Positions 32,036-60,835 of a DNA stretch of 64,000 nucleotides are shown in pieces. The notes under the pieces were generated by a model. It had not been told where the DNA came from. It did not search any database and worked only from the letters and a program-made list of their open reading frames with translations. Positions within the stretch are counted from its first letter, which is position 1; each line of letters starts with the position of its first letter. Origin of the DNA: an uncultured Bacteroidales bacterium (GTDB lineage Bacteria; Bacteroidota; Bacteroidia; Bacteroidales; Bacteroidaceae); assembly GCA_902781515.1 (NCBI GenBank), contig CACZJU010000004.1, positions 159,088 through 223,087 of the forward strand. Direction: 5' to 3'. Made by a program: the position numbers and the translations under genes.

Positions 32036-32066
32036 TTATTAACCTTTTTATTATTTGAGGAATAAA

Positions 32067-32209
32067 GGAGTTAAAGAAGTTATCGCTTCGCTCGTCCTTC
32101 GGACAGTAGTTAAAGACGAATGTATTAGACTCCCTGAATCACACAAGCTACAAACGTATCGTCCTTTAACTTCTTTAACTTCTTTAACTCCTTTAACTTC
32201 TTTAACTCC
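32067..32209. repeat. MITE-like element, family copy A
   Basis: A 143-bp element with perfect 15-bp terminal inverted repeats (GGAGTTAAAGAAGTT at 32067-32081 and its complement at 32195-32209). Positions 32079-32164 match 60624-60709 (reverse strand) at 78 of 86 bases. Positions 32165-32209 are five tandem 9-bp units of the CTTTAACTT type. No gene is inside. It fills the gap between the B3/4 gene and the lipoprotein gene and touches the stop codon of the latter. Confidence 0.85.
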
Positions 32210-32808
32210 TATTTCTTCAACTCATTCACTCCTCTTGTGCAGTGCAGCTCCTCAGTGCTTGTGGGCTCGCTTGCGATGCTGTCAGTTTTGATGCTGTCAG
32301 TAGCTTCGTCCCAGATGTCACCCATTGTATTCTCCTTAGCGTAGTAGAAGTAGTCGCAGAGGGAAGCATATTCGCTGTAGTAGTGCTCGTAGTTCTTCAG
32401 GCGGAACTTTGTGGAATCGTACTTGCCGTCCATGTAACCGGTGAAGTAATTGTCGTTGATGCGATAGTCGCGGATGGCGCAGTCGAGAGATGGGTCGTCG
32501 AAGTACAGATATATTGTGCTGCCGATGATTTCGTAGTCGAAGTAATGAGTTACGCGATACGAATAGAGGTAGTCGGTCTGAACTCCACGTCCTTTGCGGT
32601 ATCCCCAGCCCTGTGGCATGAACTCTATTTCAGAGCTGCTGCACTTGGTGCCGTTAATCCACATATCGAGGTCGCCGAACCAGCGTCCGCTTACATCGAA
32701 GCCGACAGCTTGTTCCATCTCAAATTCGCAACTTGTGAAACCGAAGAGTGCCACGAACATCATTCCCATGATCCAAAGATTTTTCTTCATTGTCGTAATA
32801 GTCTTCAT
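32209..32808 (-). CDS. Hypothetical lipoprotein
   Basis: An exported lipoprotein of about 199 residues from the ATG at 32808 (an ATG at 32790 is an alternative); the lipobox is FTSC. The body is rich in Tyr, Asp and Phe and looks like a small beta-barrel or lipocalin-like fold (GRWFGDLDMWING, VTHYFDYEIIGSTIYLYF). No family is recognised. Its stop codon abuts repeat copy A. Confidence 0.7.
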   Translation of the reverse strand: MKTITTMKKNLWIMGMMFVALFGFTSCEFEMEQAVGFDVSGRWFGDLDMWINGTKCSSSEIEFMPQGWGYRKGRGVQTDYLYSYRVTHYFDYEIIGSTIYLYFDDPSLDCAIRDYRINDNYFTGYMDGKYDSTKFRLKNYEHYYSEYASLCDYFYYAKENTMGDIWDEATDSIKTDSIASEPTSTEELHCTRGVNELKK

Positions 32809-33028: not shown

Positions 33029-33958
33029 ATGAAATTGAATATCATTGTACTTGCAAAACAGGTACCCGACACACGCAATGTCGGTCCCGATGCCATGACT
33101 CCCGAAGGCACCGTGAACCGCAGTGCGCTGCCTGCTATCTTCAATCCAGAGGATTTGAACGCTCTGGAGCAGGCTCTCCGACTTAAAGACCAATTCCCTG
33201 GCACCACAGTCCACGTGCTCACAATGGGCCCTGGCCGTGCTGCTGAGGTCATCCGCGAGGCTATGTACCGCGGTGCCGACGGCGGTTGGCTCTTGACCGA
33301 CCGTGCTTTCGCAGGTGCCGACACACTGGCTACGAGCTATGCGCTTGCAACGGCTATCAAGCATGTTTGCCCCAATGTCGACCTTATCATCGGCGGTCGT
33401 CAGGCTATCGATGGCGATACGGCTCAGGTAGGTCCACAGGTGGCAGAGAAGTTGGGACTGAACCAAATTACTTACGTGGAGGAAGTTAAAGAAGTTAAAG
33501 AAGTTACAGAAGTTCTTGCTAAGGCAAGCGACCAAGGTCGAGCGAAAGAAGTTATCGCAACGCGTCACATCGATGGGGGAGTGGAGACGGTGGAGAGTCC
33601 GCTGCCTTGCGTGCTGACAGTTAACGGAAGCGCAGCTCCCTGTCGTCCGCGCAACGCTAAGTTGGTGATGAAATACAAGCGTGCCCTTGCTCCATTGGAG
33701 TTGGCTCCTGGCACAAGTTACGAGGACTTGCCCTATGCCGACCAGTATGGCAAGAAGGCATATCTGAAGATTGGTCAGTTGACGACAGCCGACGTGAATG
33801 CCGACCTCGCACAGTGCGGTCTCGCAGGTTCGCCCACCAAGGTAAAGAACGTGGAGAATATCGTCTTCAAGGCGAAGGAAAGTAAAGTGTTAACCGGTAG
33901 CGACGAGGACATCAACGGCCTCGTTCAGGAATTATTGGCAAGTCACACGATTGGATAA
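33029..33958 (+). CDS. etfB: Electron transfer flavoprotein beta subunit
   Basis: A 309-residue ETF beta chain, starting MKLNIIVLAKQVPDTRNV. With EtfA it carries electrons between acyl-CoA dehydrogenases and the quinone pool or other partners. The AMP-binding loop region DLIIGGRQAIDGDTAQVGPQ is present. Residues about 152-176 (VKEVKEVTEVLAKASDQGRA...) are not part of the family and are encoded by a repeat also found at 60702-60760; the conserved RHIDGGVETVE resumes directly after. The stop overlaps the etfA start by one base (TAATG). Confidence 0.95.
   Translation: MKLNIIVLAKQVPDTRNVGPDAMTPEGTVNRSALPAIFNPEDLNALEQALRLKDQFPGTTVHVLTMGPGRAAEVIREAMYRGADGGWLLTDRAFAGADTLATSYALATAIKHVCPNVDLIIGGRQAIDGDTAQVGPQVAEKLGLNQITYVEEVKEVKEVTEVLAKASDQGRAKEVIATRHIDGGVETVESPLPCVLTVNGSAAPCRPRNAKLVMKYKRALAPLELAPGTSYEDLPYADQYGKKAYLKIGQLTTADVNADLAQCGLAGSPTKVKNVENIVFKAKESKVLTGSDEDINGLVQELLASHTIG
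33481..33558 (+). repeat. Repeat-family copy D inserted in frame in etfB
   Basis: A 78-bp (26-codon) segment starting with 9-bp GTTAAAGAA units and two small hairpins (CTTGC..GCAAG and CGACC..GGTCG). Positions 33500-33558 match the reverse complement of 60702-60760 at 56 of 59 bases. The length is a multiple of three and the frame stays open. Confidence 0.85.
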
Positions 33959-34980
33959 TGAATAACGTATTTGTATATTGTGAGCTTGAAGGCACTAAGG
34001 TTGCCGAAGTAAGCCAAGAACTGCTCACTAAAGGCCGCAAACTGGCCAACACGCTGGGTGTGCAGTTGGAAGCCGTGGCTGCCGGCAGCGGTATCACGGG
34101 AAAGGTGGAGAGCCAGATTCTCCCCTACGGCGTGGATAAGTTGCACATTTTCGATGCTGAGGGCCTTGCTCCCTACACCTCGAAGCCTCATACGGCAGTG
34201 CTGGTGAACCTGTTTAAGCAGGAAAAGCCGCAGATTTGCCTGATGGGTGCCGATGTTGTGGGTCGCGACCTCGGACCTCGCGTTTCTTCTGCCCTGCACA
34301 GCGGTCTGACTGCCGACTGCACGGCTTTGGAAATCGGTCCTCACGAGGACAAGAAACTGGGCAAGACCTACGAGAACCTGCTCTATCAGATTCGTCCTGC
34401 CTTCGGTGGTAACATCGTGGCAACGATTGTCAATCCCGAGAACCGTCCCCAGATGGCTACAGTCCGTTCGGGTGTGATGAAGGCCGAGATTCTCGACCCC
34501 AACTACAAGGGGGAGGTCATCGTAGAGGATGTGGCAAAGTTTGTGCCTGAGACAGAGTATGTTACGAAGGTGCTCGATCGTCACGTTCAGGCTGCCAAGA
34601 ACAATCTGAAGGGTGCCAGCATCATCGTGGCTGGTGGTTATGGTGTGGGCTCGAAGGAAGGTTTCGACCAGCTCTATGAACTCGCCAAGGTGCTTCATGC
34701 CGAGGTGGGTGCCAGTCGTGCTGCTGTGGATGCTGGCTTTGCCGACCACGACCTGCAGATTGGTCAGACTGGTGTCACCGTTCGTCCCAAGGTTTATATC
34801 GCCTGTGGCATCAGCGGTGCCATTCAGCATGTTGCTGGTATGAAGGAGTCGGGCATCATCATCTCTATCAACAGCGATGAGAACGCTCCCATCAACACCA
34901 TCGCCGACTACGTCATCAACGGCACCGTCGAAGACGTCGTTCCCAAACTCATCAAATACTACAAACAAAATTCAAAGTAA
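33958..34980 (+). CDS. etfA: Electron transfer flavoprotein alpha subunit
   Basis: A 340-residue ETF alpha chain. The C-terminal FAD-binding domain carries the family signature: IIVAGGYGVGSKEGF, GASRAAVDAGFADHDLQIGQTG, VYIACGISGAIQHVAGM and ISINSDENAPI. It forms a heterodimer with EtfB and is translationally coupled to it. The acyl-CoA dehydrogenase that normally follows directly is here separated by a 526-bp repeat-flanked insertion. Confidence 0.97.
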   Translation: MNNVFVYCELEGTKVAEVSQELLTKGRKLANTLGVQLEAVAAGSGITGKVESQILPYGVDKLHIFDAEGLAPYTSKPHTAVLVNLFKQEKPQICLMGADVVGRDLGPRVSSALHSGLTADCTALEIGPHEDKKLGKTYENLLYQIRPAFGGNIVATIVNPENRPQMATVRSGVMKAEILDPNYKGEVIVEDVAKFVPETEYVTKVLDRHVQAAKNNLKGASIIVAGGYGVGSKEGFDQLYELAKVLHAEVGASRAAVDAGFADHDLQIGQTGVTVRPKVYIACGISGAIQHVAGMKESGIIISINSDENAPINTIADYVINGTVEDVVPKLIKYYKQNSK

Positions 34981-34987
34981 TTTATTG

Positions 34988-35513
34988 GGAAGTTAAGGAA
35001 GTTAAGGAAGTTAAGGAAGTTAAAGGACGTTAGTTTAAGTTGCCGAATATGATTAATACTGTGACATATAGTTTCGAGAATGTCATCGCTTGGCAGAAAG
35101 CACATGACTTTGTACTTTTAACATACAAGGTTACACGGCATTTCCCTGAGGATGAGAAATTCGGACTGACATCACAATTCCGTCGTGCAGCCGTATCGAT
35201 TGAGGCGAATATTGCAGAAGGATACAAGAAATTAAGTAAGGCAGATAAACTCCGCTTCTTCAATATTGCCCAAGGCAGTCTGGAGGAATGCCGCGACTAT
35301 CACGTCCTATCGCGTGACTTAGGTTATCTGTATGCAGATGAATTTGAGTATTTGCATCAAAGTATAGAAGAGGCAAGTAAATTCCTTAATTCATATTGTA
35401 AGGCCATTGTTGATAATGTGGCGATAAAGGATGATAAAATATGACACAAATTATATTGGGGGAGAAAGTATCGTCCTTTAACTTCCTTAACTTCTTTAAC
35501 TTCTTTAACTTCC
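34988..35513. mobile_element. Repeat-flanked element carrying a four-helix-bundle gene, family copy C
   Basis: Terminal inverted repeats of 41 bp (34988-35028 and 35473-35513, 39 of 41 identical) consist of 9-bp GGAAGTTAA units ending in AGGAC. The right boundary GTATCGTCCTTTAAC is shared with copy A. The only gene inside encodes a four-helix-bundle protein. The element splits the etfA-acd pair. No transposase or target-site duplication is evident, so mobility is inferred from structure and from the dispersed partial copies. Confidence 0.7.
35049..35444 (+). CDS. Four-helix-bundle protein (S23/Avd-like)
   Basis: A 131-residue protein of the family first noticed in rRNA intervening sequences and related in fold to Avd of diversity-generating retroelements. 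Typical features are FENVIAWQKAHDFVLLTYKVT, the FGLTSQFRRAAVSIEANIAEGY core, and SLEECRDYHVLSRDLGYL. Such proteins form positively charged rings that can bind nucleic acid. Start at the ATG at 35049; a TTG three codons earlier is possible. It is the only cargo of the inverted-repeat element here; no reverse transcriptase or variable repeat is nearby. Confidence 0.88.
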   Translation: MINTVTYSFENVIAWQKAHDFVLLTYKVTRHFPEDEKFGLTSQFRRAAVSIEANIAEGYKKLSKADKLRFFNIAQGSLEECRDYHVLSRDLGYLYADEFEYLHQSIEEASKFLNSYCKAIVDNVAIKDDKI

Positions 35514-35528
35514 AAAAATAAAAAGATT

Positions 35529-37241
35529 ATGGCAAATTATTATAGTGATATAAAGGAAATCCAGTTCGAACTGGAGAACAGTGCGCTGATGTCGCGCATT
35601 GTGGAGCTCAAGGAACGTCAGTTCGAGGACAAGGACCAGTACGACGAGGCTCCTCAGGACTTTGCCGACGCCATGGACTCGTACGACAAAGTACTGGACA
35701 TCGTGGGCGACATCACTGGCAACGTGATAGCCCCCAATGCTGAGGATGTGGATGCAGAGGGCCCCCATTGCGAGGGCGGTCGTGTGCACTATGCCTCTAA
35801 GACCTACGAAAACCTGCAGGCAATGCGTTCGGCAGGTCTGAACGGTATGACGATGCCCCGTCGCTACGGCGGTTTGAACCTGCCCGTGACAGTCTATACC
35901 GCAGCCAACGAAATCGTCAGTGCTGCCGATGCCGGCTTCGAAAACATCTGGAGCCTTCAGGACTGCATCGAGACACTCTATTGCTTCGGCAACGAGGAGC
36001 AGCGTCAGAAGTACATTCCCCGTGTTTGTGCGGGAGAGACCATGTCGATGGACCTCACCGAGCCCGATGCCGGTAGCGACCTGCAGAGCGTGATGCTGAA
36101 GGCCACCTACGACGAGGAAAACGACTGCTGGCGACTGAACGGCTCTAAGCGTTTCATCACCAACGGCGACTCCGACATTCACCTCGTTTTGGCTCGTTCT
36201 GAGGCTGGCACGCGCGATGGTCGTGGTCTGTCGATGTTCATCTACGACAAGCGCGACGGAGGTGTTGACGTACGTCGTATCGAGAACAAACTCGGTATTC
36301 ACGGCAGCCCAACCTGCGAGCTCGTTTACAAGAACGCCAAGTGCGAACTCTGCGGCGACCGCAAGCTGGGTCTTATCAAGTACGTGATGTCGCTGATGAA
36401 CGGTGCCCGCTTGGGTATTGCAGCTCAGTCGGTAGGTCTTTCTCAGACAGCCTACAACGAGGCTATTGCCTATGCTCGCGACCGTAAGCAGTTCGGCAAA
36501 GCCATCATCGAATTCCCTGCTGTGGCAGAGATGATTTCTAACATCAAGGCCAAGCTCGACGCAGGTCGTGCATTGCTCTATCAGACAGCCCGTTACGTCG
36601 ATATCTACAAGGCTCTTGAGGACATCAGTCGCGAACGCAAACTGGAACCCGAAGAGCGTGCCGAGCTGAAGAAATACAGCCGTCTGGCCGATGCCTTCAC
36701 TCCGCTGGCAAAGGGTATGAACTCCGAGTATGCCAACCAGAACTGCTACGACTGCATTCAGGTGCACGGCGGCAGCGGCTTCATGCTCGAATATGCCTGC
36801 CAGCGCATCTATCGCGATGCACGCATCACCAGCATCTACGAGGGAACCACCCAGTTGCAGACCGTTGCTGCCATCCGTTATGTCACCAATGGCATGTATG
36901 CTCAGGTTATCGAGGAAATGCTCGAAGCACCCGTTGCCGCTGAGTTCGAGGGCTATGTTGCCCGCATCAAGACTATGGCAGAGAAACTGAATGCCTGCAC
37001 CGCTGCTGTCAAGGAGGCTGGGAACGACGAGCTGCACGACCTCTGTGCCCGTCACCTCTACGAAATGACTGGCGACGTCATCATGTCCCTCCTGCTGCTT
37101 CAGAACGCCACTAAGGCTCCTGAACTCTTTGCCAAGAGCCTGCAGGTGTATGTCAACCTTGCTGAGGCCGACGTCGAGAAGAACAACACCCTCGTCGCTC
37201 GTATGACCAGCGAAAGTATCGAGAACTACCGTCAGGCATAA
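35529..37241 (+). CDS. Acyl-CoA dehydrogenase
   Basis: A 570-residue flavoenzyme of the acyl-CoA dehydrogenase superfamily with a C-terminal extension (about 450-570). It oxidises acyl-CoA to enoyl-CoA and passes electrons to ETF, encoded just upstream. Visible motifs: SMDLTEPDAGSDLQ, GSKRFITNGD, YARDRKQFGKAI, QVHGGSGFMLEYACQRIYRDARI and IYEGTTQLQT, where the Glu is the usual catalytic base. The etfBA-acd set is common in Bacteroidales. A terminator follows. Confidence 0.95.
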   Translation: MANYYSDIKEIQFELENSALMSRIVELKERQFEDKDQYDEAPQDFADAMDSYDKVLDIVGDITGNVIAPNAEDVDAEGPHCEGGRVHYASKTYENLQAMRSAGLNGMTMPRRYGGLNLPVTVYTAANEIVSAADAGFENIWSLQDCIETLYCFGNEEQRQKYIPRVCAGETMSMDLTEPDAGSDLQSVMLKATYDEENDCWRLNGSKRFITNGDSDIHLVLARSEAGTRDGRGLSMFIYDKRDGGVDVRRIENKLGIHGSPTCELVYKNAKCELCGDRKLGLIKYVMSLMNGARLGIAAQSVGLSQTAYNEAIAYARDRKQFGKAIIEFPAVAEMISNIKAKLDAGRALLYQTARYVDIYKALEDISRERKLEPEERAELKKYSRLADAFTPLAKGMNSEYANQNCYDCIQVHGGSGFMLEYACQRIYRDARITSIYEGTTQLQTVAAIRYVTNGMYAQVIEEMLEAPVAAEFEGYVARIKTMAEKLNACTAAVKEAGNDELHDLCARHLYEMTGDVIMSLLLLQNATKAPELFAKSLQVYVNLAEADVEKNNTLVARMTSESIENYRQA

Positions 37242-37311: not shown

Positions 37312-37844
<533 letters not shown>

Positions 37845-40800
37845 ATGAAGACAAAATCGCTCATGAAAATGACCGCTTGGATGGTCATGTTATTCCTGTT
37901 AATCGGTTGGACAAGTGAAGCCTCGGCGTGTAAGTTGGAGGACACCTACCGCTACAACGTGACGTTGGAGGGTACTCACCAGCTGAGGCTGAAGATGCCG
38001 CTCTATGACAAGGACGACTACGACTGCTGGATTGTGGAAGGTACTGTCTATATCCAGCCGGAGGGTGGAAGCAAGGAAACTCTCTTCTACTACGAGTCGC
38101 AAAGAGACATTGACAGTGGCGACTACCTGCCCCGTATCTACAGCTACAGGGGTGTGGACGGTTCGATGATTCTCTATCGTGACCGTGGCTACAGCAATGT
38201 GAGCATTGGCACCAGCAAGGGCAATGAACTCTGCCCGTGTGTGGACAATCAGGACTATGCCATTGTGAACCTGCTGTGGGACATCCCCTATAAGTACCGC
38301 GGCAAGAAGGTGACCATCTCGTGGAGCATCCACCACAATGGTAACATGACCGAGTACAACAAATGGATAAGTATCGATCCCACGACCATATCCATTCCAA
38401 CCGCTCCTCAGTTGCAGCATCCTATGATTATGGATCCTATGATCTCCTACGAGACGGGACATCCTAATCAGATCATGGTGCCCTATATGATTGCAACCAA
38501 CAAATTACAGAAGATGACAGCCCACTATACTGAGGTATATCCATCGGGAAGTGTCAACAGGACGGTCACTCTTCCTACCACAACGTCCGACTTTATGCGT
38601 CTGCCTGCCGACGTGTGTATCAAGGATTTCTATATCGAGTCAACCTATACGGACACGGAGGACAAGACCCAGACCACCCAATCCACCAAGTCCGACCTGC
38701 CGATTCTGCACCATCCGCAAGCTCTCTCCGCTTCCTTGCAGTCAAATGGCAAGGTCATGTTGCGATGGAAGGTCAACAATTTCCAATGGAATGACTTCTC
38801 CAGTACGGACACGTGGGAGATTCAGCGTAACGTGACGGGTGATGCTACCAACGGGCAGTGGACTAGTCTGGGGCAGCTGAACTATGACGAGAAGGAGAGT
38901 GAATTCACTTTCGAGGATGAAAATCTGATGGCCTTCTACCAGCAGGCTCCTGTCTATTATCGGGTACGTCGTGTCATCACAGCTGTATGGGGCTGGACTC
39001 CAGAGAGCGGCTATGCCACCACCATGCTGCCTGCAACGCTTGCGCTACCTGCCATCACCGAGGCAACCGTAAGCCGAAACAGTACCTGGAACGACAACGA
39101 ACACAGCGTGATGCTGAAATTCAAGGGCCGTATGCTGACAGACAACTTTGCCACAGCCACTCCCGAATACGACAAGAACAACTACCTGGTGCTGCGCGAC
39201 TCCACCGACTGGAAACTCTTCGTGCAGCTCGTGAAGGAGGCCAACGGTTCGAAGGACGTAAATGCCATCATGGCTGCCGATATATCTACAACATATTCTG
39301 TAGGTACACTATCCGATGCTCCTTACCAAGGAACGTTTGACGGCAATGGTCATACGCTGACGGTCAATATCACCGATGCTAAAGAAACGGCCTCTGTATT
39401 CTACAAAGTCAAGAAGTGTACGATCAAGAACCTTCGTGTCACAGGTACAATTTCGGGCGGAATGCACTCAGCCGGACTAGTAGCATATGTTGATGGCATT
39501 TCCGCACTCACCATCGAGAACTGCCATATCTCAACACAGATAACCGCAACCGGCAACGCCAATAACGCTCCTCACGCCGGTGGTATTATCGGTCATGGTG
39601 GTTCGGGAACAGTAGCTATCCGCAACTGTCTGTTCGATGGAACGGTCGTTGCCGACAATGTCACCGGAAAGGACATGAACGACAGTTATGTAGGTGCGTT
39701 CTTAGGCTGGGCAGATAATAATTGGAAAATAAATATATCGTACTGCCTTGAACGTGGTACATATATTAATTTCGCACACAACGGTGCCAACTACAAATAT
39801 ACAGGCTCACCAACCTGTTTCGGCGGCACCGGCAACTACAACTCCAACAACTGGGGTGAGACGAATACGGCCATAGGGCTTGCACCCGACCAGTTGGCAT
39901 CGGCATTAAGCAGCAAGTGGAAAGTGGAAGGCGGCACCGTTTTGCCCATTATGAGCACAGATGAAGACGATGCTCACAAGACCCTAATCTGGGACGACCG
40001 TGCCAAGGTAGTGCTGAATACGTATAAATATGTAGAAAACATCGATGACAATGCATTTAGCATCAGCAGCGAAGATGACTGGAATGCCTTTGCGGCAGCG
40101 GTGAAAGCGTCAAAGGGGGACTATGCAGTTAACTGCAAACTGATGACCGATATCACAGTAAGCAAGCCCTTGGAAAAATACTCAGGCTCCATCGAAGGTT
40201 ACGGTCATACCATCACGCTTAATCTCACAGAGTCCAACTTATATTATTCACTCATCCGATATGGCTTTAGTACCATCAACATTCGTAATCTGAATGTTAA
40301 AGGCGTAGTTAATGGTAGCAATTACTGTGCTGGGCTTATTGGGATGTTGGGCAACGACATGGCCAACCTAACTGTCGAAAATTGTCATGTTTCAGCAAAC
40401 ATATCAACATCCAATGATGGTTATGCAGCTGGATTTGTGGCTAATGCGGGCTCTGGTAAAGTAACCCTCCGTAACTGTCTTTTTGACGGAAACGCATCCT
40501 TTACGGGTTTGAACTCTTACTCTATGTTTGCCTCTTTTGTCAACCGCTCTCATAGAACGCAGGATATGACGGTGGAGAACTGTCTGGAGAATGGCACCTA
40601 CAATGGATATAATAATGTAGTAGCCGTTGGCTATTACGATGGAAATAGCCATAAGGCATGGAATGGTGGCATGAACCTTTGGACCTATTCCACCAATGGG
40701 TTCTCTGAAATCAGCCACGTAGGTAGCATCACTCCTGCACAGCTCGCTGCTAATTTGGGCAGTCAGTGGCAGGTGAAGGATGATAAGGTTGTTCCCATTC

Positions 40801-43800
40801 AGGATAATGGTCTTCGCTACACTGAACGCCGTGAACTGACCAACGAGGAACGTAACAAAGGCCAGCTGATTATGGATCTTCAGACCTCGTGCGTTAACCA
40901 TGAGTTCTCTTTGATGGTTGAGCCGGGCGAATCCACCATGCCTCTGTCCGTCGATAGTGAATTGAAGGCAACAAAGACCGAGACGGGCGACCTGGCAGTC
41001 TATAAGTTCGACAACAACGTAGTGATGGGCAATGCCAAGGCCGACACATTGCAGAACGCCGTATCGCTGTCGTGGGAATGCACACGCGGTCAGGCCGACT
41101 TCTACCGCATCAAGCGCTACGATAAGCAGGCGGCCGACCAGGTGGAGACGCTGGAGGACAACTACACACAGACGGCCTACATGGACCGTACCGTTCGTCC
41201 GCAACACACCTACGTCTATATCATAGAGGGTGTGACCCAGTGCGAGGGAGAGAATGTGAGCAAGGCAACGGTTGAAGGCTGCTGCACCCCAACGGGTATG
41301 GTTCGCGGCTACGTGCGTCTGACCAACGGCATCGGACTGCCGGGTTACACGGTTACGGCTACGCCTGTGGGAAACATCGACGGTGCCGAGATACGGACCT
41401 GCGAGACGGACAGCACGGGCTACTTCGAGATTGGCGGACTGGTATATCAGAAGTATGGCGAATACACGCTGACCGTCAGTGACACCACCCGTGTGGCTTC
41501 GTTCGACCCACAGCTCATCAGCTTCGACGAAGATATCAATCTGCAAACCAACATTATCTTCACGCAGACCAACTACTACCTCTTCTCTGGCTACGTGCTC
41601 TACGAAGGCAGCAGTATCCCAGTATCGGGAGTTAGCTTCCTGCGCGACGGAGTTAAGGTGGTGAACTCCAACGGAAAGCCTGTTACCACCGATAATCAGG
41701 GTGCCTTCGAGGTAAGCGTGCCCCAGGGCAGTCACCAGATACAGGTGGTGAAGGACGGACATGTTTTCTTGAACGATGGTTTCTTCATCACACCCGATGC
41801 CAAGCCCGACTCCACATGGCACAACTGGCAGAAGAACGTGAGCGAGATATACCTGTGGGACCAGACGAAGGTGAACCTGCAGGGCCGCGTCGTTGGTGGT
41901 AACGACCAGGGCCTGCTGCCGCTGGGACAGTCGCTTTCGAAGAACAACCTGGGCAAAGACATTACCATTGTGATGCAGTTAGAGGGCGACAACACCTCGT
42001 GGATTGTGCGCGACCAGATGAATGCCTCCGTGACCGAACGCCACGAAGCATACGCCCACGGCAAGAACGACACCACGCAGGTGGATGCCTATCGCCACCG
42101 CATCGAGATTCATCCCGACATGAAGACGGGCGAATACCTGCTGCCCATGTATCCTGTGAAATATAAGGTGACGGAGGTTTACGCACAGGGTTATCCCACC
42201 CTGTTCCAAACGGGAATGGTGAGCGAGACCCTGGACCTGAACAATTACATGGATGGCGACACTGCTACCTACTCGCGAATCTTCCATTCACAGCCCACGC
42301 TGGATGTATGGCAGTTCAACGGCACTCAGGACCGCTACTACGGTATCAGGCAATATACGGCGATGGACAATGCCGGCATACGCGACACAGTGGTGCTGTG
42401 GCGCAAGACCGACGAAGGCGGCAAATATACGCTCGGCTATCCCGTGTTCATGGCTGGTGCCTCGGTTCCGATGTTCTTGTCGGCACGCGAGGAATACCGA
42501 TACAACAACGAGGCTTTCGGTGAACTGGATGTCGTGCAGTTGGACGGCGGACGTGTGATTGCCGACAACCAACTGGTGGGCAACGACCAGACCGACGAGG
42601 TGGAACTGGACGACGAGGGTCAGGGCACATACGTGTTCACGCCGGAGAACCTGACTTTCATGCTCGAGGACGAGATGGCGTTGCGAACGCTGAAGTTCAC
42701 CCTCGAATACGACGGCAGCTTCTACGACATACAACCCATCGAGGCATACATCATGGCTGCGCTGACAAAGCCGCAGGGCAGACGAATCATCGCTGGACAG
42801 AATACGCACCTTATCGACATCCTGCGCGACCCACCAGGTGCCGGCAGTTCGGCATACATAGAGAAGGGCTCCAAGATAAGCTACAGCTACAATGCCGACT
42901 ATAATGTGCAGATGGGTGTCAACATGAAGGTGGGAGTAGGTTCAGGTGCCAATTACTACACCGGTGTATGGGCTGGTGTCGGAAGCGGTACCATTGCCGG
43001 AACCACTGCATCCAGCGACAACCTCGGAAGCCTGTCATACGACCTCGCTACGGCCTATTATCAGGACTGGAACTACGAATACGAGTTTGAGACCAAGGAG
43101 AAGATATCCACAAGCAGCAATGTGAAGGAAGTGGGTATGAACTCCGATATATATATAGGTATGACCGACAACGTCATCGTTGAGGATGCGGTTGCCGTTC
43201 GTGCCGTGAACAGTGCGGCTATGCAGCGTCTGCTTCCTGGAATGGGAGGCAAGACCACGGTCAACGGACATGAGTTCGACGTGACGGGTACAGCCAAGGT
43301 ACTTGCACGCGGATGGGACGCAGAGAAGAAAGATTCTGTATATCTCGTTCGTGACGAGGTGATGCAACTCTCTTCCAAGATAAACAGTACCTTCGCTCAT
43401 TCACAGAGCTACTTGATTACCGAACTTATTCCGACACTCCTACGCACACGCAATGCCTTGCTGATGGATTCAACCACCACAAGCGCTTACGCCCAAGCGT
43501 TGGCAGACAGGATGAAGAGACCGGTCTATGTGAGCAAGGTAGCCCCAAGCAATCCGAGCTTCTCGATGGAGAAATTCTACGACACCTATAAACCGACGGG
43601 CGTGAAAGACGAGTGGCCAGACTCCATAAAGGCACTGAACGCTCAGATAGGCACCTGGGTGGGATTCATCGCTGCCAACGAAAAGGAAAAGCTGGAGGCT
43701 TACGACCTGGTCAAGATATATGATTTCGACGGACGCTCGGAAGTGGAGTACAGCGAGTCGTTCACGACCTCAGAGGGCCTGCACCGCTACTGGAAGATAC

Positions 43801-46800
43801 CGAGTGCGGTGAACCTGACAGGTGAGGACACCTTCAGCAGAAGTACCAGTAACAACTCGAAGTATTCCATGACTAACGATGACGACTATAATATCGTAGC
43901 TGTGGACTTCAAAGCCGGAGGTGTGAAGTTCAGTATCAACATCACTCCGCTCTTCGGTTTCGACTTCAACTACCAGAACGGTAAGAGCGAGGAATACAGC
44001 AAGGAGACCGGTTTCACTCTCTCGTGTGATCGTAAGTCAAGCCTTACGGTTGCGGTCTATAAGACGCGTGAACTCAGTTCCGACAGCATTGCCAAACTTT
44101 CTGCACTGGGAGGTCTGAACACCTTCTACAAGCATGTGGAGGACAACCTTAAGGATATCTACAACGGACGTCCCGGTAGCGGCAATACCACAAGCTACAT
44201 AACCAGCACGACCGATGTGCCGAGATACAGGAACTTAGTGTTCCGCACGCTGGCAGGTGCTACAGGAAGTCCTTGGGAAGAGGAACGCCGGACTATGTTT
44301 TATAATCCCGGAACGGTGCTCGATCAGGGTACGGAGCAAATCAACAAACTGCGTATCTGGACAGAGACCCCAAGCGTATCGAACGTACCATACGGCGAAC
44401 CTGCACGATTCACGCTCTACATGGTCAACGAGAGTGACCTGCCCGATCGCGTGTCACATTCATTCAAATTCTACTCCGACGATGCAGCTAATCCAAAAGG
44501 GGCCAAGATATATATCGACGGTGTGCCTTTGAACGGTGGAGGAGCAGACATCTGGCTCGAAGCCAATGAAGTGATTGAGAAGCAAGTAGAGGTATATGCC
44601 GGAGCCGAATACGACTATGAGAACCTGGCAATTTGCCTCTTCGACGAAGATGACCTTGCACACATCTACACAGCAAACATCTCTGCTCACTATGTGCCGG
44701 CTGCCGGAGCCGTGAACATCTCGAAGCCCGGCGACAAGTGGGTGGTGAACACCGAATCGGCTTATGACGATGATCGTAAGGCATACTATCTGCCTGTGCA
44801 CATTGACGGCTTCGACATAAACTTCCGCAACTTTGACCACATCGAACTGCAGTACAAACTCTCGACCCAGGGCGATAAGGACTGGGTGAACGTATGCTCG
44901 TACTACCCGAATACAGAAGAAGGTGAACGGCTGATGGCACTGGCTTCGGGTGAAAAGAAACTCATGGACCACGACGGATATATAGATGCGTTCTTCTACG
45001 GTGAGAAAGACCCGATAGAGCAGTACTACGACCTGCGTGCCGTAACTTACTGCCGTCACGGCAACGGTTATCTGACACGTTCAAGTAACATACTGACGGG
45101 TATCAAGGACACACGTCGTCCGCAGGTATTCGGCACACCGCAGCCTGTTGACGGAATCTTGGGCATAGGCGATGACATTATGCTGCGCTTCTCAGAGCCC
45201 ATAGCCAGCAACTACCTGTCGCCAGTCAACAACTTTGAGGTAATAGGACAAACCAATTCCAGCAACATATCCCTGTCCACGGCTGTACAGTTCAATGGCG
45301 AGGGCGTTGGTGTTTCGAATGCTTCACGAAATCTCGAAGGCAAGTCGTTTACCGTTGATGTGATGCTTAAACCAGCCGACAACGGCAAGGCAATGACTGT
45401 GTTCTCGCACGGCGAAGAAGGTAAGTTGTTGGAACTGGGTCTTACGGCAGACCGCCGTATGACAGCCGCCATTCAGTACAACGATACTGTGCCTGCTATG
45501 ATTTATACGGCTGACGAACCCTGTCTGTTCGACGGACTGGAAGAGGTGTTCTACATCTTCGACACCGATGTCGAGAATGAAAAGACGAATATCCGCTTCT
45601 ACAACGGAACAGCCAAGGTGGGTGAGTTCGTCTATCCTAACACCTATCAGGGAAATGGTACTATGTTGCTCGGTATGCCGATGATTGATACCATATTGGA
45701 GGAAAGTGAGAACTACGAGGGCGAGATGCTTGAGTTCCGTCTGTGGAATCGCGCACTCACCTCAACTGAAATGAGCAACTATCGTCAGAAGCGTCTTACT
45801 GGCTACGAACTGGGCTTGCTCGACAACTATCCCCTGAACGAGGGTAAGGGCGACTACAGTTACAACCGCACTCAGGGCGGAAGCGACCTCCTGTTGTTCG
45901 GTACCACATGGAAGATGCCTTCGGGTATAGGTATGAAGTTGGACGGCAAGAAGGGATTCCGCCTGAATTCGAGACCTTTCAACCGCTATTCTCACCAAGA
46001 CTACACACTGATGTTCTGGTTCCGCACTCCAGATGCAAACGGTACGCTGCTGGCTAACGGCAAGGCTGTGGACGAACCTGGAGCACAGAGCCACTTCCGC
46101 TTCGGTGTACTGGATGGTGCACTCAGTCTGAATCTGAGTGGAAGGAGCATACAGAGCATGAAATTCGTGGACGACGGACAGTGGCACCATGTTGCCCTTA
46201 CCATAAACCGTTCGCGCAACGTAGGTAACCTCTATGTCGACCAGAAGTTGAGCAACACATTTGCCGTGGATACAATAGGCGGTATCAGCGGTAGCTTGCT
46301 TGCAGCCGGAGCAACTTACACAAGCGGCGAAACCGTAGAAGACGCCATCAACGGTAACATCGACGAAATCTGTATGATGGAAATGGCACTGTCTGAAAAT
46401 GCCCTCAAGTCGTATGCTACCAGCACTCCTAACGGTAAGGAGATGGGTCTGCTGGCTTACCTGAGCTTCTCTGAGAGTCAACGCCAGTCGGACAACGACC
46501 TGCGCCTGATGCCTTCCGGTGTGAGCCTCAAACGCTACAAGGATACCACTACGGGTGAATACACCAGTCAGCGCGATACCATTGTTTCTGACGATGATTT
46601 GGCACGCTGCAGCGACCGCACCATCTATGCTCCAATGCACGACAACCAGAAGATGGAGAACATCAAGTTCTCGTATGTGGCTGATGGTAGCAACCTGCTC
46701 ATCAACCTCGATGTGCCTGAGCCTGATATTGAGAAGACAAACGTATATATCATCGTGAAGGAAGTAGCCGACCTGCAGGGCAACCTGATGGCTTCGCCTG

Positions 46801-48530
46801 CGATGATGGACCTCTACGTCTATCGTAACCCGTTGCGCTGGGGCGACAAGCATCTGAACCTCACGTCTGCGTATGGCGAGGAGCTTACCTTCACGGCAAA
46901 GATTAAGAACTTGAGCGGACGTTCGCGTCGTTTCACTCTCGAAGGTCTTCCTCTCTGGATGACTGCCTCCGAAACCAGTGGCACGGTGGGTGCTCTCGAC
47001 GAGGAGACTGTCACCTTCACAGTTTCTCCTTATATTAATATAGGTAACTTCGAGGAATCTATCAGTCTTGTTGGTGAGGACGGTATGAACGAGCCTCTGC
47101 CCATCAGCTTGAAGGTGCGTGGCGTGAAACCCGACTGGGCTGTCGATGAATCTCTCTTGCACACCAACATCTCTATGAGCCTCGTCGGACAGGTCGTAAT
47201 CGACGATGAAGTGAAACACGATACCGAGGATATGCTGGCAGTCTTCAACGACAGTCATCGTCTGTTGGGTGTGGCACATATCGAATCAAATCCTACTGGC
47301 AATACAAATGAGGGTTTGGCTTATCTGAATATCTACAATGCCGACTACAGCGAATCGGCTCTGAACTTCGAGTTCTTCGATGCTTCAACAGGTGTAATTC
47401 ATGTATTGTTGAGCGATAGGGAACTCAAGTTCAAGAGCGATACCATCATCGGCTCTGCAACTGAACCTGTGAAGTTCGCTGCCAACAACGGCGTGGTGCA
47501 GGCCATTCAGTTGAAGAAGGGGTGGAACTGGTTATCGTTCAACGTAGAGCCTATCAAGAGCACTGTCAAGGAATTGCTGAACAATGCTACGAAGTGGCAG
47601 GTGGGCGATTTCCTGGAGGCCGAGCGTCCCGATGGCACCTTCAGCCTGTTGGGCTACAAGTCGAGCCGTAATCCGTACAATCCCAATTCGCTTATCTACT
47701 CTTGGGACTGCGCAGATTCAGTAGTGACTGTCGATCCGTGCAAGATGTATCGTTTCTACTCCATCGATAACAAGGTGGGCTATGTAGCCGGAAGCAGGTC
47801 TTTCGACCCGATTACCGTTCATAAGGGCTGGAACCGCATAGGCTATATCTCCAGATTGAACTTGCCCATTGGTACGGCTTTGGCTGAGTTTGCCGACTTG
47901 GGTACGGTGGGCGATATCGTCAAGAGCCAGAGCGAGTTTGCAGTGCTCACCACCGATGCTTACGGCAACCGTTCGTGGAGAGGAACCTTGCAGTATCTGC
48001 GCGTAGGCGAGGGCTACATGCTGAAGCACAATGCCGACAACGAAGTCCGATTCTACTATCCCATATACTTCAGCGCATCGCGCTACGGTGGCGTGGGCAA
48101 GAACAAGGCTCCGCGTCACGTCAACACCGGCAGCACCAGCATGACCGTCATTGCCCTTGCCGAGGGCATAGACATTCAGCCGGGCGACCGCCTCACTGCC
48201 TATCGCGGTGCTGAGGTCTGCGGCATTGCCGAGGCCGACCGTCAGGGTCTGTTCTTCCTCAGTGTGGGTAATTGCGATGAGGCTCAGAAGGGCTTGCGGT
48301 TCACCGTTGAGCGCGACGACGAACTGATAGCAGTTACAGACAACAGCCAGTTGAGCTACATACCCGATGCAGCTCTTGGTACTCTCGAAGAGCCTACGGC
48401 TATCCAGTTCCTTTCTACCGACAGCTTCGACGGCGAGGGCTGGTACACGCTCGGCGGCATCAAACTCAATAAGCGTCCTGCCCAGCGTGGTGTCTATCTC
48501 CACAATGGAAAAGTCGTTACGATTAAATAA
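37845..48530 (+). CDS. Giant multidomain surface protein with GLUG and LamG domains, T9SS cargo
   Basis: A 3,561-residue exported protein from the ATG at 37845. Order: signal peptide; fibronectin-like N-terminus; two GLUG-like beta-helix modules (about 494-618 and 781-888), each with the IENCH...GGIIG...IRNCLFDG pattern; carboxypeptidase-regulatory-like domains (about 1150-1318); a long central region of unknown fold; two LamG-like domains (about 2480-2650 and 2705-2860); an Ig-like segment; two KGWNWLSF/KGWNRIGY repeats (about 3223 and 3324); and a type IX sorting tail (YTLGGIKLNKR...GVYLHNGKVVTIK). Probably a cell-surface adhesin or glycan-binding scaffold; no catalytic domain was recognised. 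Confidence 0.85.
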   Translation: MKTKSLMKMTAWMVMLFLLIGWTSEASACKLEDTYRYNVTLEGTHQLRLKMPLYDKDDYDCWIVEGTVYIQPEGGSKETLFYYESQRDIDSGDYLPRIYSYRGVDGSMILYRDRGYSNVSIGTSKGNELCPCVDNQDYAIVNLLWDIPYKYRGKKVTISWSIHHNGNMTEYNKWISIDPTTISIPTAPQLQHPMIMDPMISYETGHPNQIMVPYMIATNKLQKMTAHYTEVYPSGSVNRTVTLPTTTSDFMRLPADVCIKDFYIESTYTDTEDKTQTTQSTKSDLPILHHPQALSASLQSNGKVMLRWKVNNFQWNDFSSTDTWEIQRNVTGDATNGQWTSLGQLNYDEKESEFTFEDENLMAFYQQAPVYYRVRRVITAVWGWTPESGYATTMLPATLALPAITEATVSRNSTWNDNEHSVMLKFKGRMLTDNFATATPEYDKNNYLVLRDSTDWKLFVQLVKEANGSKDVNAIMAADISTTYSVGTLSDAPYQGTFDGNGHTLTVNITDAKETASVFYKVKKCTIKNLRVTGTISGGMHSAGLVAYVDGISALTIENCHISTQITATGNANNAPHAGGIIGHGGSGTVAIRNCLFDGTVVADNVTGKDMNDSYVGAFLGWADNNWKINISYCLERGTYINFAHNGANYKYTGSPTCFGGTGNYNSNNWGETNTAIGLAPDQLASALSSKWKVEGGTVLPIMSTDEDDAHKTLIWDDRAKVVLNTYKYVENIDDNAFSISSEDDWNAFAAAVKASKGDYAVNCKLMTDITVSKPLEKYSGSIEGYGHTITLNLTESNLYYSLIRYGFSTINIRNLNVKGVVNGSNYCAGLIGMLGNDMANLTVENCHVSANISTSNDGYAAGFVANAGSGKVTLRNCLFDGNASFTGLNSYSMFASFVNRSHRTQDMTVENCLENGTYNGYNNVVAVGYYDGNSHKAWNGGMNLWTYSTNGFSEISHVGSITPAQLAANLGSQWQVKDDKVVPIQDNGLRYTERRELTNEERNKGQLIMDLQTSCVNHEFSLMVEPGESTMPLSVDSELKATKTETGDLAVYKFDNNVVMGNAKADTLQNAVSLSWECTRGQADFYRIKRYDKQAADQVETLEDNYTQTAYMDRTVRPQHTYVYIIEGVTQCEGENVSKATVEGCCTPTGMVRGYVRLTNGIGLPGYTVTATPVGNIDGAEIRTCETDSTGYFEIGGLVYQKYGEYTLTVSDTTRVASFDPQLISFDEDINLQTNIIFTQTNYYLFSGYVLYEGSSIPVSGVSFLRDGVKVVNSNGKPVTTDNQGAFEVSVPQGSHQIQVVKDGHVFLNDGFFITPDAKPDSTWHNWQKNVSEIYLWDQTKVNLQGRVVGGNDQGLLPLGQSLSKNNLGKDITIVMQLEGDNTSWIVRDQMNASVTERHEAYAHGKNDTTQVDAYRHRIEIHPDMKTGEYLLPMYPVKYKVTEVYAQGYPTLFQTGMVSETLDLNNYMDGDTATYSRIFHSQPTLDVWQFNGTQDRYYGIRQYTAMDNAGIRDTVVLWRKTDEGGKYTLGYPVFMAGASVPMFLSAREEYRYNNEAFGELDVVQLDGGRVIADNQLVGNDQTDEVELDDEGQGTYVFTPENLTFMLEDEMALRTLKFTLEYDGSFYDIQPIEAYIMAALTKPQGRRIIAGQNTHLIDILRDPPGAGSSAYIEKGSKISYSYNADYNVQMGVNMKVGVGSGANYYTGVWAGVGSGTIAGTTASSDNLGSLSYDLATAYYQDWNYEYEFETKEKISTSSNVKEVGMNSDIYIGMTDNVIVEDAVAVRAVNSAAMQRLLPGMGGKTTVNGHEFDVTGTAKVLARGWDAEKKDSVYLVRDEVMQLSSKINSTFAHSQSYLITELIPTLLRTRNALLMDSTTTSAYAQALADRMKRPVYVSKVAPSNPSFSMEKFYDTYKPTGVKDEWPDSIKALNAQIGTWVGFIAANEKEKLEAYDLVKIYDFDGRSEVEYSESFTTSEGLHRYWKIPSAVNLTGEDTFSRSTSNNSKYSMTNDDDYNIVAVDFKAGGVKFSINITPLFGFDFNYQNGKSEEYSKETGFTLSCDRKSSLTVAVYKTRELSSDSIAKLSALGGLNTFYKHVEDNLKDIYNGRPGSGNTTSYITSTTDVPRYRNLVFRTLAGATGSPWEEERRTMFYNPGTVLDQGTEQINKLRIWTETPSVSNVPYGEPARFTLYMVNESDLPDRVSHSFKFYSDDAANPKGAKIYIDGVPLNGGGADIWLEANEVIEKQVEVYAGAEYDYENLAICLFDEDDLAHIYTANISAHYVPAAGAVNISKPGDKWVVNTESAYDDDRKAYYLPVHIDGFDINFRNFDHIELQYKLSTQGDKDWVNVCSYYPNTEEGERLMALASGEKKLMDHDGYIDAFFYGEKDPIEQYYDLRAVTYCRHGNGYLTRSSNILTGIKDTRRPQVFGTPQPVDGILGIGDDIMLRFSEPIASNYLSPVNNFEVIGQTNSSNISLSTAVQFNGEGVGVSNASRNLEGKSFTVDVMLKPADNGKAMTVFSHGEEGKLLELGLTADRRMTAAIQYNDTVPAMIYTADEPCLFDGLEEVFYIFDTDVENEKTNIRFYNGTAKVGEFVYPNTYQGNGTMLLGMPMIDTILEESENYEGEMLEFRLWNRALTSTEMSNYRQKRLTGYELGLLDNYPLNEGKGDYSYNRTQGGSDLLLFGTTWKMPSGIGMKLDGKKGFRLNSRPFNRYSHQDYTLMFWFRTPDANGTLLANGKAVDEPGAQSHFRFGVLDGALSLNLSGRSIQSMKFVDDGQWHHVALTINRSRNVGNLYVDQKLSNTFAVDTIGGISGSLLAAGATYTSGETVEDAINGNIDEICMMEMALSENALKSYATSTPNGKEMGLLAYLSFSESQRQSDNDLRLMPSGVSLKRYKDTTTGEYTSQRDTIVSDDDLARCSDRTIYAPMHDNQKMENIKFSYVADGSNLLINLDVPEPDIEKTNVYIIVKEVADLQGNLMASPAMMDLYVYRNPLRWGDKHLNLTSAYGEELTFTAKIKNLSGRSRRFTLEGLPLWMTASETSGTVGALDEETVTFTVSPYINIGNFEESISLVGEDGMNEPLPISLKVRGVKPDWAVDESLLHTNISMSLVGQVVIDDEVKHDTEDMLAVFNDSHRLLGVAHIESNPTGNTNEGLAYLNIYNADYSESALNFEFFDASTGVIHVLLSDRELKFKSDTIIGSATEPVKFAANNGVVQAIQLKKGWNWLSFNVEPIKSTVKELLNNATKWQVGDFLEAERPDGTFSLLGYKSSRNPYNPNSLIYSWDCADSVVTVDPCKMYRFYSIDNKVGYVAGSRSFDPITVHKGWNRIGYISRLNLPIGTALAEFADLGTVGDIVKSQSEFAVLTTDAYGNRSWRGTLQYLRVGEGYMLKHNADNEVRFYYPIYFSASRYGGVGKNKAPRHVNTGSTSMTVIALAEGIDIQPGDRLTAYRGAEVCGIAEADRQGLFFLSVGNCDEAQKGLRFTVERDDELIAVTDNSQLSYIPDAALGTLEEPTAIQFLSTDSFDGEGWYTLGGIKLNKRPAQRGVYLHNGKVVTIK

Positions 48531-48531
48531 A

Positions 48532-48990
48532 ATGAAAGATATGAAAAAGACATTATTAGCAATAGCAGCCCTCGCCTTTATGGCGTGGGGCTGCGGCTCG
48601 GAGGAAGAGGTCATACCATCGTTGCAGCAGGGTTGGAATGAACGTCCCACCAATTGGGTTGCTCCCGATAATTCGTCCTTCGACCTACCTCCTATGAGCG
48701 TTCAGGTGCAACTTGGCGACACGCTGGCAGCCTATCAAAGTAGCGCCGATCTCATGTGTGCCACCATTAACGGTGAGATTCGTGCCGTAACGCCGCCGAT
48801 GTCCAACATGGGTGTTGTGTACTATCCACTCACGATAGTGGGTAACAGCAGCGATCAGATGGTGTGCCTGCACTACTATTGCGACCGCCTCCATCGTATC
48901 TACACCATCGAAAACTGGGCACAGTTCGATCCCTCTACCGCTCCCACAGGCGACAGCGGTATCTATCGTCCCAAGTTCGCAGAAAAATAA
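48532..48990 (+). CDS. Small lipoprotein downstream of the giant protein
   Basis: A 152-residue lipoprotein starting 2 bases after the giant gene's stop. The lipobox is AWGC. The mature part begins with Glu-rich sequence and then GWNERPTNWVAPDNSSFDL, with a compact beta-rich body containing VYYPLTIVGNSSDQM. It resembles a small Ig-like domain but no family is recognised. The tight spacing suggests co-expression with the giant protein, perhaps as its surface anchor or partner (inference). Confidence 0.75.
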   Translation: MKDMKKTLLAIAALAFMAWGCGSEEEVIPSLQQGWNERPTNWVAPDNSSFDLPPMSVQVQLGDTLAAYQSSADLMCATINGEIRAVTPPMSNMGVVYYPLTIVGNSSDQMVCLHYYCDRLHRIYTIENWAQFDPSTAPTGDSGIYRPKFAEK

Positions 48991-49032
48991 AATTGAAGAT
49001 TGAAAATTTAAGATTTAAGATTGAAAATTTGA
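48991..49032 (+). repeat. Six tandem heptamers between two genes
   Basis: Six 7-base units (AATTGAA, GATTGAA, AATTTAA, GATTTAA, GATTGAA, AATTTGA) fill the entire gap between the lipoprotein stop and the next ATG; the last A belongs to the start codon. Confidence 0.8.
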
Positions 49033-50468: not shown

Positions 50469-50507
50469 TTCTTAATTATTAATTCTTAATTATTAATTCT
50501 TAATTTG
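50466..50507 (+). repeat. Six tandem heptamers after the GLUG gene
   Basis: TAATTCT and TAATTAT alternate, starting with the TAA stop codon of the GLUG gene itself and ending 9 bases before the next ATG. Confidence 0.8.
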
Positions 50508-51024: not shown

Positions 51025-51035
51025 ATTTTGTGAAT

Positions 51036-51140
51036 GGTTATTGGTTATGGGTTATTGGTTATGGGTTATTGGTTATGGGTTATTGGTTATGGGTTATTGG
51101 TTATTGGTTATGGGTTATAGGTTATGGGTTATAGGTTATA
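51036..51140. repeat. Fifteen tandem heptamers
   Basis: Fifteen exact-length 7-base units, mostly GGTTATT and GGTTATG in alternation, with GGTTATA near the end. The array lies between the GlsB-like gene start (51024) and the end of sprA (51156), leaving only 11 and 15 bases on either side. Confidence 0.9.
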
Positions 51141-58958: not shown

Positions 58959-58981
58959 TTTTCAATTTTCAATTTTCAATT
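58954..58981. repeat. Four heptamers at the sprA start
   Basis: Four TTCAATT units (ATTGAAA on the coding strand) fill the gap between the ruvA stop (58985) and the sprA TTG start, which lies inside the last unit. The TTG 21 bases upstream in the same frame meets a stop after five codons. Confidence 0.85.
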
Positions 58982-59687: not shown

Positions 59688-59722
59688 CTTTTACTTTTTA
59701 CTTTTTAATTTTTACTTTTCCA

Positions 59723-59842: not shown

Positions 59843-59855
59843 GGCATTTAATAAA

Positions 59856-59950
59856 GTTTAGAGTTTAACGTTTAGAGTTTAGAGTCAGTTGTGGAGTTTA
59901 AAGTTTAGAGTTTAAGGTTTAGAGTTTAGAGTCAGTTGTGGAGTTTAAAG
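59856..59950. repeat. Heptamer array between HU and smalltalk genes
   Basis: Units GTTTAGA, GTTTAAC, GTTTAAA and similar, interrupted twice by GTCAGTTGTGGA, giving a larger period of about 45 bases. It lies just upstream of the smalltalk start. Confidence 0.85.
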
Positions 59951-59951
59951 T

Positions 59952-60494: not shown

Positions 60495-60498
60495 AGTT

Positions 60499-60540
60499 GG
60501 TTAATGGTTAATGGTTATTGGTTAAGGGTTAATGGTTAAT
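60499..60540. repeat. Six tandem heptamers upstream of the HU gene
   Basis: GGTTAAT, GGTTAAT, GGTTATT, GGTTAAG, GGTTAAT, GGTTAAT. It begins 5 bases before the HU start codon (60494). Confidence 0.9.
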
Positions 60541-60550
60541 GAAATTTTTT

Positions 60551-60835
60551 GGAGTTATGCGCTTCGCGCTGGAGTTATGTGCTTCGCACGGAGTTATGCA
60601 TCGCTTCGCTCGCGGAGTTATAGGGACGATACATTTGCTGGTTGCGTGATTTAGGGAGTCTAATACATTCGTCCTTAACTCCTGTCCGAAGGACGAGCGA
60701 AGCGATAACTCCTTTCGCTCGACCTTGGTCGCTTGCCTTAGCAAGAACTTCTTTAACTCCGTAGCCGGAGGCTGCCCGGCTTTCAAGAGGAAGACGGGCG
60801 TCTTGCCGGCATAAGACCTGCGTCTTCCGCTTTCA
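60551..60835. repeat. Hairpin mosaic, repeat-family copy B
   Basis: Units of GGAGTTAT followed by a small hairpin repeat three times from 60551 (GCGCTTCGCGC, GTGCTTCGCAC, CGCTTCGCTCG). A core at 60614-60712 has GGAGTTAT/ATAACTCC ends and matches copy A (86 bases, 8 mismatches). 60702-60760 matches the repeat in etfB. Further hairpins (GTAGCCGG..., GAAGACGGGCGTCTTG...) continue to about 60835. An 85-codon ORF across it is not considered real. Confidence 0.8.

Follow-up and report, generated by a model that had tools for sequence, protein, structure and literature searches.

What is a single small gene, enclosed by long inverted repeats, doing between two genes that are direct neighbours in some related genomes? 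The question is raised by an element of ~0.53 kb in the window, that is, the whole stretch of 64,000 nucleotides from an uncultured Bacteroidales bacterium that was analysed. The element and its neighbours, for which the putative names of the preliminary description are kept, are as follows:

33958..34980, + strand: putative etfA, upstream neighbour
34985..35036, + strand: left arm, (GGAAGTTAA)n array and inner end AAAGGACGTTAG
35049..35444, + strand: four-helix-bundle (S23 / PF05635 / TIGR02436) gene, 131 aa from ATG
35465..35516, + strand: right arm, inner end TATCGTCC and (TTTAACTTC)n array
35529..37241, + strand: putative acd, downstream neighbour

A four-helix-bundle gene within a hairpin

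The preliminary description reported inverted repeats of 41 bp built of 9-bp units, and this is borne out. The core of the arms (34988-35028 / 35473-35513) is complementary at 39/41 positions and the full-length arms (34985-35036 / 35465-35516) at 47/52, with a repeat unit of 9 bp according to TRF. The arms enclose one gene, which runs from the ATG at 35049 to the stop at 35444. Its assignment to the four-helix-bundle family, also made in that description, agrees with the matches of its product to PF05635 (3e-36, 124 bits against a curated cut-off of 33.8) and TIGR02436 (2e-34, 118 bits against a curated cut-off of 24). RNA folding of the element predicts a stem of ~42 bp whose loop contains the gene (z = -9.1). 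The adjacency of etfA and acd elsewhere is likewise found, the two genes being separated by 2-14 bp in 12 of the 32 genomes read. Overall, the initial observation is confirmed. Further downstream, the window contains a large open frame of 3571 aa (37815-48530), a surface protein by appearance only.

Inverted arms around genes of the S23 family

If the arms belong to the gene, homologues should usually be flanked by inverted repeats, and the preliminary description named repeats of the GTTAAAGAA type. PF05635 matches are found in 126 out of 139 genomes of the genus, with at most 17 per genome. Our genus sample comprised 30 loci from the PF05635 search, 60 stretches taken in list order (one entry skipped) and four places in the window's own genome. 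An iterated profile detected 99 genes in this sample, none of which is the copy of the window itself; 93 of them, with at least 200 bp of flank on each side, were scored by the strongest inverted match that could be made between their flanks of 400 bp, using a cut-off of 14, and the remaining six, with short flanks, were dropped. A score of at least 14 was obtained for 84 of the 93 genes, compared with 2/456 control windows of the same size from the same loci. The nine genes below the cut-off are those of L039, L042, L062, L087, L090, L107, L108 and L129 and one of L105. The arm units are mostly 7-12 bp long and have many sequences, among them GTTGACGA, GGTTATAA, GTAGTTAA, GTTTAAA and GGTTAGC; at some genus loci the arms consist of compound units, GGTTAAT plus a small hairpin.

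The arrangement extends well beyond the genus. In a wider scan, an alignment of 24 such proteins was searched against genome contigs. It found at least 585 relatives, of which the 80 best were kept, and 75 of these had enough flank for scoring. Inverted arms scoring at least 14 are present at 55 of these 75 loci (8/400 controls), and 40 loci exceed the control 99th percentile of 17.5. Judged by their record titles, the loci that pass come from Bacteroidota, Planctomycetota, Acidobacteria, Chloroflexi, Verrucomicrobia, Nitrospirota, CPR bacteria and a Lyngbya, among others; a Methanophagales locus, with a score of 14.5, is marginal. In ten further-sampled genomes, each with 4-10 matches, 16 of 30 loci pass and 14 score under 14, compared with 0/60 controls; 9 of the 30 overlap the 75-locus set, and 14 of the 21 non-overlapping loci pass. 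Among plasmids, 25 records have a match, and in the 12 that were read, all cyanobacterial, every locus scores at least 14.5 (12/12, against 1/60 control windows). Several of the plasmid copies lie inside operons, for example those in CRISPR operons at cas10-cmr3 and cas6-cas4 junctions (L376, L377); on a related plasmid, from PCC 7002, the family gene is absent from the cas10-cmr3 junction.

Flanking by inverted repeats is thus as common as had been expected (84/93, 55/75 and 12/12 loci in the three samples), but the flanking units are many and different, not GTTAAAGAA alone. A single repeat family, GTTAAAGAA, is ruled out as a full account by this diversity of units. A search for a 5-mer common to the inner ends across clades gave a weak result (best 8/85), and GACRATAG-like inner ends are found within some clades only.

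Filled and empty junctions

The preliminary description also suggested a comparison of empty and filled etfA-acd junctions. The acd gene was found in 115 of the 139 genus genomes, and the junction was read in 32 genomes, the window's own included, covering the 30 best loci and two additional ones. Besides the 12 empty junctions, 11 are filled by an S23-family element, one of them with a broken gene, and these elements have four arm types. A different, G/C-rich hairpin insert is present in eight genomes and nested other arrays in one. Gene-less hairpin inserts of the CCCTCCCC...GGGGAGGG type at this junction are 135-162 bp long at L133, L135, L136, L145, L153 and L154 and 498 bp long at L148 and L149. 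The G/C-rich hairpin inserts are a second kind of element using the etfA-acd hot spot.

In a tree of 33 proteins, including ten of the 11 etfA-acd copies, the etfA-acd proteins do not form a single clade, and there are six changes of the site label. The clade with the window protein (support 0.98) also holds proteins of G011, G093, G032, G085 and G091, encoded on contigs other than the acd contigs of these genomes, and the nearest grouping of the window protein is with G011 and G106 (support 0.74). Deep nodes of the tree are weak, and the six label changes might include losses or exports from an old insertion besides gains. A second junction, between putative permease and ABC ATPase genes (named by sequence reading), is the site of the second copy in the window's own genome. 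It is empty (0-2 bp) in 14 of 30 genomes and contains the gene, with two arm types, in four; the other 12 have other inserts of 69-164 bp that are repeat-rich by eye.

On cyanobacterial plasmids, one site, A, carries the element in two Trichormus records and one Scytonema record; six records span the site at 97-98% identity but lack the gene. Compared with the two empty records that were read, the gain consists of the element and a second copy of GTAAT, i.e. a 5-bp direct repeat. At the same junction, a gene-less mini-element with TAATTAA on its flanks is present in Brasilonema and a decayed copy in Nostoc C052. Site B is compatible with a TTCTA repeat but ambiguous, since the arm unit itself contains TTCT; no clean direct repeat is present at sites C, D and E, leaving a clean one at one of the five sites only. 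Site B is empty on another plasmid of the same strain, and that plasmid carries a different family member, with AAAAGGG-type arms, at the next junction. Furthermore, three Nostocales plasmids (L395, L396, L397) contain, at three places, mini-elements of 182-221 bp that belong to one family with a conserved interior.

Mobility had been proposed for the element in the window, and the junctions support it in part. Sequence comparison shows arms and gene together, as one block, at junctions where relatives have no insert; this is seen for several sites and several lineages of the element, consistent with gain as a unit. On the other hand, no recent jump was detected among 51 gene pairs at ≥80% nucleotide identity: at least one flank is conserved in each, and the eight pairs without a match on one side have a contig end nearby.

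Arms and gene lineage

We compared 86 elements with arms, defining a site as different if no homologous flank ORF was found; some flanks are just ~1 kb, and a few of the 'different' sites may be identical. For different-site pairs, protein identity and arm similarity are correlated (Spearman 0.27, compared with a maximum of 0.115 in 500 permutations). Common arms are shared by 51% of the 39 different-site pairs with protein identity above 0.7 and by about 0-1% of those below 0.4. Such co-variation across sites supports the earlier proposal that gene and repeats form a linked system. For pairs at the same site, the two arms of an element match each other better than those of the relative in 113/114 pairs at 45-70% identity and in 39/67 pairs at 70-90% identity; for all same-site pairs below 0.9 identity the own-arm match is the better one in 152/181. 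Re-insertion would account for this pattern, and so would joint turnover of a stem. The left arm is G-rich in 81 of the 86 elements, and gene and arms have a fixed relative direction. Moreover, neighbouring ORFs, chosen by length alone and with sites common by descent counted more than once, are co-directional with the element on both sides in 58 out of 79 cases and opposite on both sides in two.

Gene-less arrays

Three gene-less relatives of the element had been noted in the window:

32063..32210, no strand assigned: gene-less inverted pair with the same 9-bp arrays as the element; inner end GACGAATGTATTAG on the left
33482..33555, + strand: gene-less array and small hairpins, in frame within putative etfB
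60551..60712, no strand assigned: gene-less set of compound units (GGAGTTAT plus small hairpin); inner motif GGGACGATAC...TTCGTCC

The arms of the pair at 32063-32210 are complementary at 20/20 positions with a spacing of 93 nt. The third is a gapped inverted set with an IR score of 13, below the cut-off of 14, and is missing from the automated repeat listing. The insertion within etfB has counterparts in the genus. In an alignment of 20 sequences, made without G052, which gave no etfB, the loop is short in 12 and longer, in frame, in seven (G000, G076, G031, G091, G131, G087 and G127), with at least three kinds of insert. Arrays of the 9-bp unit without the gene are present at several other places in the window's own genome, where another copy of the element (L037:2500-2960, on C12) has a different unit, ACCATTT, and also has inverted arms (score 23.5).

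Other arrays are present as well. A (TGGTTAT)15 array of another heptamer family occupies positions 51035-51139 of the window, and six heptamer arrays with differing units (48988-49030, 50463-50505, 58954-58981, 59689-59719, 59852-59951 and 60486-60541) fall within its last 16 kb. At L082 and L034:2470-3050 the arrays consist of compound units, each made of a short word of the GTTA type and a small hairpin, and look as if they had grown by template switching.

Across the 139 genomes, GTTGACRA arrays are found in 55 and arrays of GAAGTTAAR, the window's own unit, in 31; the reversed-pattern control gave zero in the genomes listed. In genomes with a matching gene (≥70% identity) the array is present in 8/8 versus 47/131 cases for GTTGACRA and in 6/8 versus 25/131 for GAAGTTAAR, counts that include the arms of the element itself. 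More than ten matches are found in 5/8 genomes with the gene versus 18/131 for GTTGACRA (p 0.003) and in 1/8 versus 4/131 for GAAGTTAAR (p 0.26). Array numbers, which had been expected to track the gene, do so for GTTGACRA, also with the arms allowed for (p 0.003-0.005), but not for GAAGTTAAR (p 0.07-0.26). In addition, the G035, G010, G023 and G018 assemblies, which are 75-84% complete, have 116-246 GTTGACRA array matches per genome and no gene of the GTTGACRA lineage at ≥70% identity. The link of the protein to gene-less copy number is weak. At two example loci, L279 and L282, both arms and the inner ends GGACRATA / GTCCTTTAAC are kept around 34 and 50 nt, respectively. Together with the mini-element at plasmid site A, these loci bear out the proposed gene-less copies, which have ends of the same kind.

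The protein and its possible partners

The AlphaFold model of the window protein has four helices (mean pLDDT 91). The nearest solved structures, 2GSC and 2RLD, contain five chains each, and 2GSC is described as a homopentamer (PMC4990558). The next fold matches are to Avd, alone and in complex with the reverse transcriptase of diversity-generating retroelements (DGRs) (4DWL, 8UB7; TM ~0.7, best 0.74; Foldseek E 0.014-0.02; identity 10-12%), and the Avd profile is matched below threshold (2e-8, 34 bits compared with a curated cut-off of 80). The Avd-like fold suggests that the protein might form a nucleic-acid-binding ring; the median pI, 6.5, is neutral and does not help this idea. Profile and fold searches with the window protein found only S23/Avd-type matches and no tyrosine transposase profile, and a search of ORFs and profiles within the element found no transposase. 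According to PMC4990558, the function of the S23 protein is not known, and for the one intervening sequence studied there its authors conclude that production of the S23 protein in vivo is improbable.

RVT_1 has no match in the window's own genome (86% complete). It is found in 42 of the 139 genus genomes, with no relation to the counts of the family (p = 0.74) or of GTTGACRA arrays (p = 0.99), and a reverse transcriptase as a required resident partner is unsupported. Carriage by phages was considered too; a tblastn search of 50,697 phage records with the window protein found nothing at 1e-5.

Proposed mechanism and alternatives

The best reading of the element is as a member of a family of mobile elements that lack a transposase, have satellites resembling MITEs and REPINs, and share the architecture of the intervening sequences (IVSs) of 23S rRNA. 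In such an element, two inverted arrays of tandem units, mostly of 7-12 bp, form the stem of a hairpin, and its loop contains an S23-type gene. Genome comparison shows that the element is gained as a block, mostly at operon-internal gene junctions and along the direction of transcription, and that it decays in place; gene-less arrays and mini-hairpins of the same units are present around the genome. The Avd-like protein, probably a pentamer, would recognise the arms of its own element when these are folded as RNA or as single-stranded DNA. It would promote copying of the arms both in cis and, for gene-less copies, in trans, and host enzymes would carry out cutting and joining. If the protein recognises its own arms and promotes their copying, unit and protein should co-evolve. 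Its mode of working would be that of a RAYT plus REPIN, minus the transposase. As to whether the stretch in the window is indeed a copy of such widespread, very small mobile elements, with an S23-type protein that recognises the arms and acts with host enzymes, we regard the case for and the case against as evenly balanced. The firmest support comes from the arm counts in the genus, in other genomes and on plasmids, from the comparison at plasmid site A and from the protein tree; the part played by the protein, the one clean direct repeat and the incomplete tie between gene and array number are the weakest points.

A different reading takes the arms to be a non-autonomous repeat, moved by another enzyme (an IS transposase or a reverse transcriptase) or generated by replication slippage, with the gene as a passenger or tolerance factor, e.g. 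an RNA chaperone sparing the operon from the hairpin. Such a role would suit the array-rich genomes without a matching gene, the GAAGTTAAR arrays, which show no excess with the gene once the arms are allowed for, and the co-directional placement of the gene within operons (58/79 compared with 2 opposite), as well as the neutral pI and the restriction of profiles and folds to the S23/Avd type. It is at odds with the travel of gene lineage and unit together between sites and with the arms flanking the S23 family far more often than they flank control windows; moreover, reverse-transcriptase genes are unrelated to the family counts (p = 0.74). We consider this reading somewhat doubtful, though a serious competitor.

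The protein could also act as a cofactor in the manner of Avd, passing the hairpin RNA on to a reverse transcriptase from elsewhere, with the element spreading via cDNA. Among folds of known context that of Avd is the nearest (8UB7/4DWL, TM ~0.7), and Avd is matched, below threshold, at the profile level (2e-8); the arms fold strongly as RNA, and the orientation of the element follows transcription. Nevertheless, the lack of an RVT_1 match in the window's own genome, at 86% completeness, and the independence of family and array counts from the 42 RVT_1-positive genomes of the genus (p = 0.74, 0.99) make this retro-type spread unlikely. Finally, that the element is not mobile now but an old regulatory hairpin gene, inherited by descent with arms drifting under a pairing constraint, would agree with the conservation of sites among close relatives and with the better own-arm match in 152/181 same-site pairs below 0.9 (39/67 at 0.7-0.9), but is very improbable given the empty junctions, the non-monophyly at one junction and the element plus direct repeat compared with empty plasmids at 97-98% identity; the site A sequences already strain it.

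Relation to known elements and significance

The preferred reading, a mobile element family lacking a transposase, can be set against several known systems. In the IVSs of 23S rRNA, as here, an S23/four-helix-bundle ORF lies in a stem loop formed by terminal inverted repeats, with an IVS stem of 28 bp (PMC4990558). An IVS of 428 nt, compared with ~530 here, is described in the same source, where IVSs are called selfish. By contrast, IVSs are inserted in helices of rRNA, from which RNase III excises them (PMC4990558), whereas the present element lies between two protein genes, has stems of tandem short units and is accompanied by gene-less satellites. REPINs and RAYTs resemble the present system in their inverted hairpin doublets, dispersed gene-less copies and repeats beside the gene, and also in having one repeat flavour per protein (PMC3116915). 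Here, dispersed inverted doublets related to the flanks of the gene are present, with patchy counts and a link to the gene for one of the two units. RAYTs, however, are IS200/IS605-like tyrosine transposases (PMC3116915), in place of which we find a four-helix bundle, and tandem units. MITEs, including Rickettsia palindromic elements, are small and gene-less, have inverted ends and insert in frame into coding genes (PMC10969869), as in the etfB loop; no transposase was found inside the element here. The Avd protein of DGRs has the same fold (4DWL, 8UB7; TM ~0.7), but the window protein scores below the curated Avd cut-offs, and no reverse transcriptase was found in its genome (86% complete).

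Cyanobacterial STRRs are dispersed heptamer arrays. TAACTGA heptamer repeats likewise form dispersed arrays, with no evident transmission mechanism according to PMC4679880, and the same organisation is described for the GGGAATC repeats in Xanthomonas and the GGGGA(C/T)T repeats in Nostoc (PMC4692102). In X. campestris, from which the solved relative 2GSC also comes, the latter source counts 70 convergent pairs. The terms 'four helix' and 'S23' are absent from the main texts of PMC4679880 and PMC4692102, and among the open-licence PMC papers listed by the literature searches none links the S23 family to short tandem arrays. The arrangement is general and, as far as open papers show, has not been described as such.

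The S23/four-helix-bundle family has many members (at least 585 loci) and, according to PMC4990558, no known function, and the origin of the heptamer arrays of cyanobacteria, Xanthomonas and Beggiatoaceae is not settled. Tentatively, and with more reserve than for the element in the window itself, we propose a new class of ~0.5-kb elements, ranging from Bacteroidota to Cyanobacteria, Planctomycetota, CPR bacteria and perhaps archaea, in which a four-helix-bundle protein without a known nuclease domain would mobilise hairpins of tandem units; the class could be the source of many heptamer-type arrays, and the IVSs of rRNA could be members that landed in rRNA. The association of gene and arrays provides a testable role for the protein and a possible source for the repeats, and suggests a mobile element whose sole gene is no recognisable transposase. 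It would help to explain both the in-frame insertion of repeats into coding genes and the differences in operon junctions between related species.
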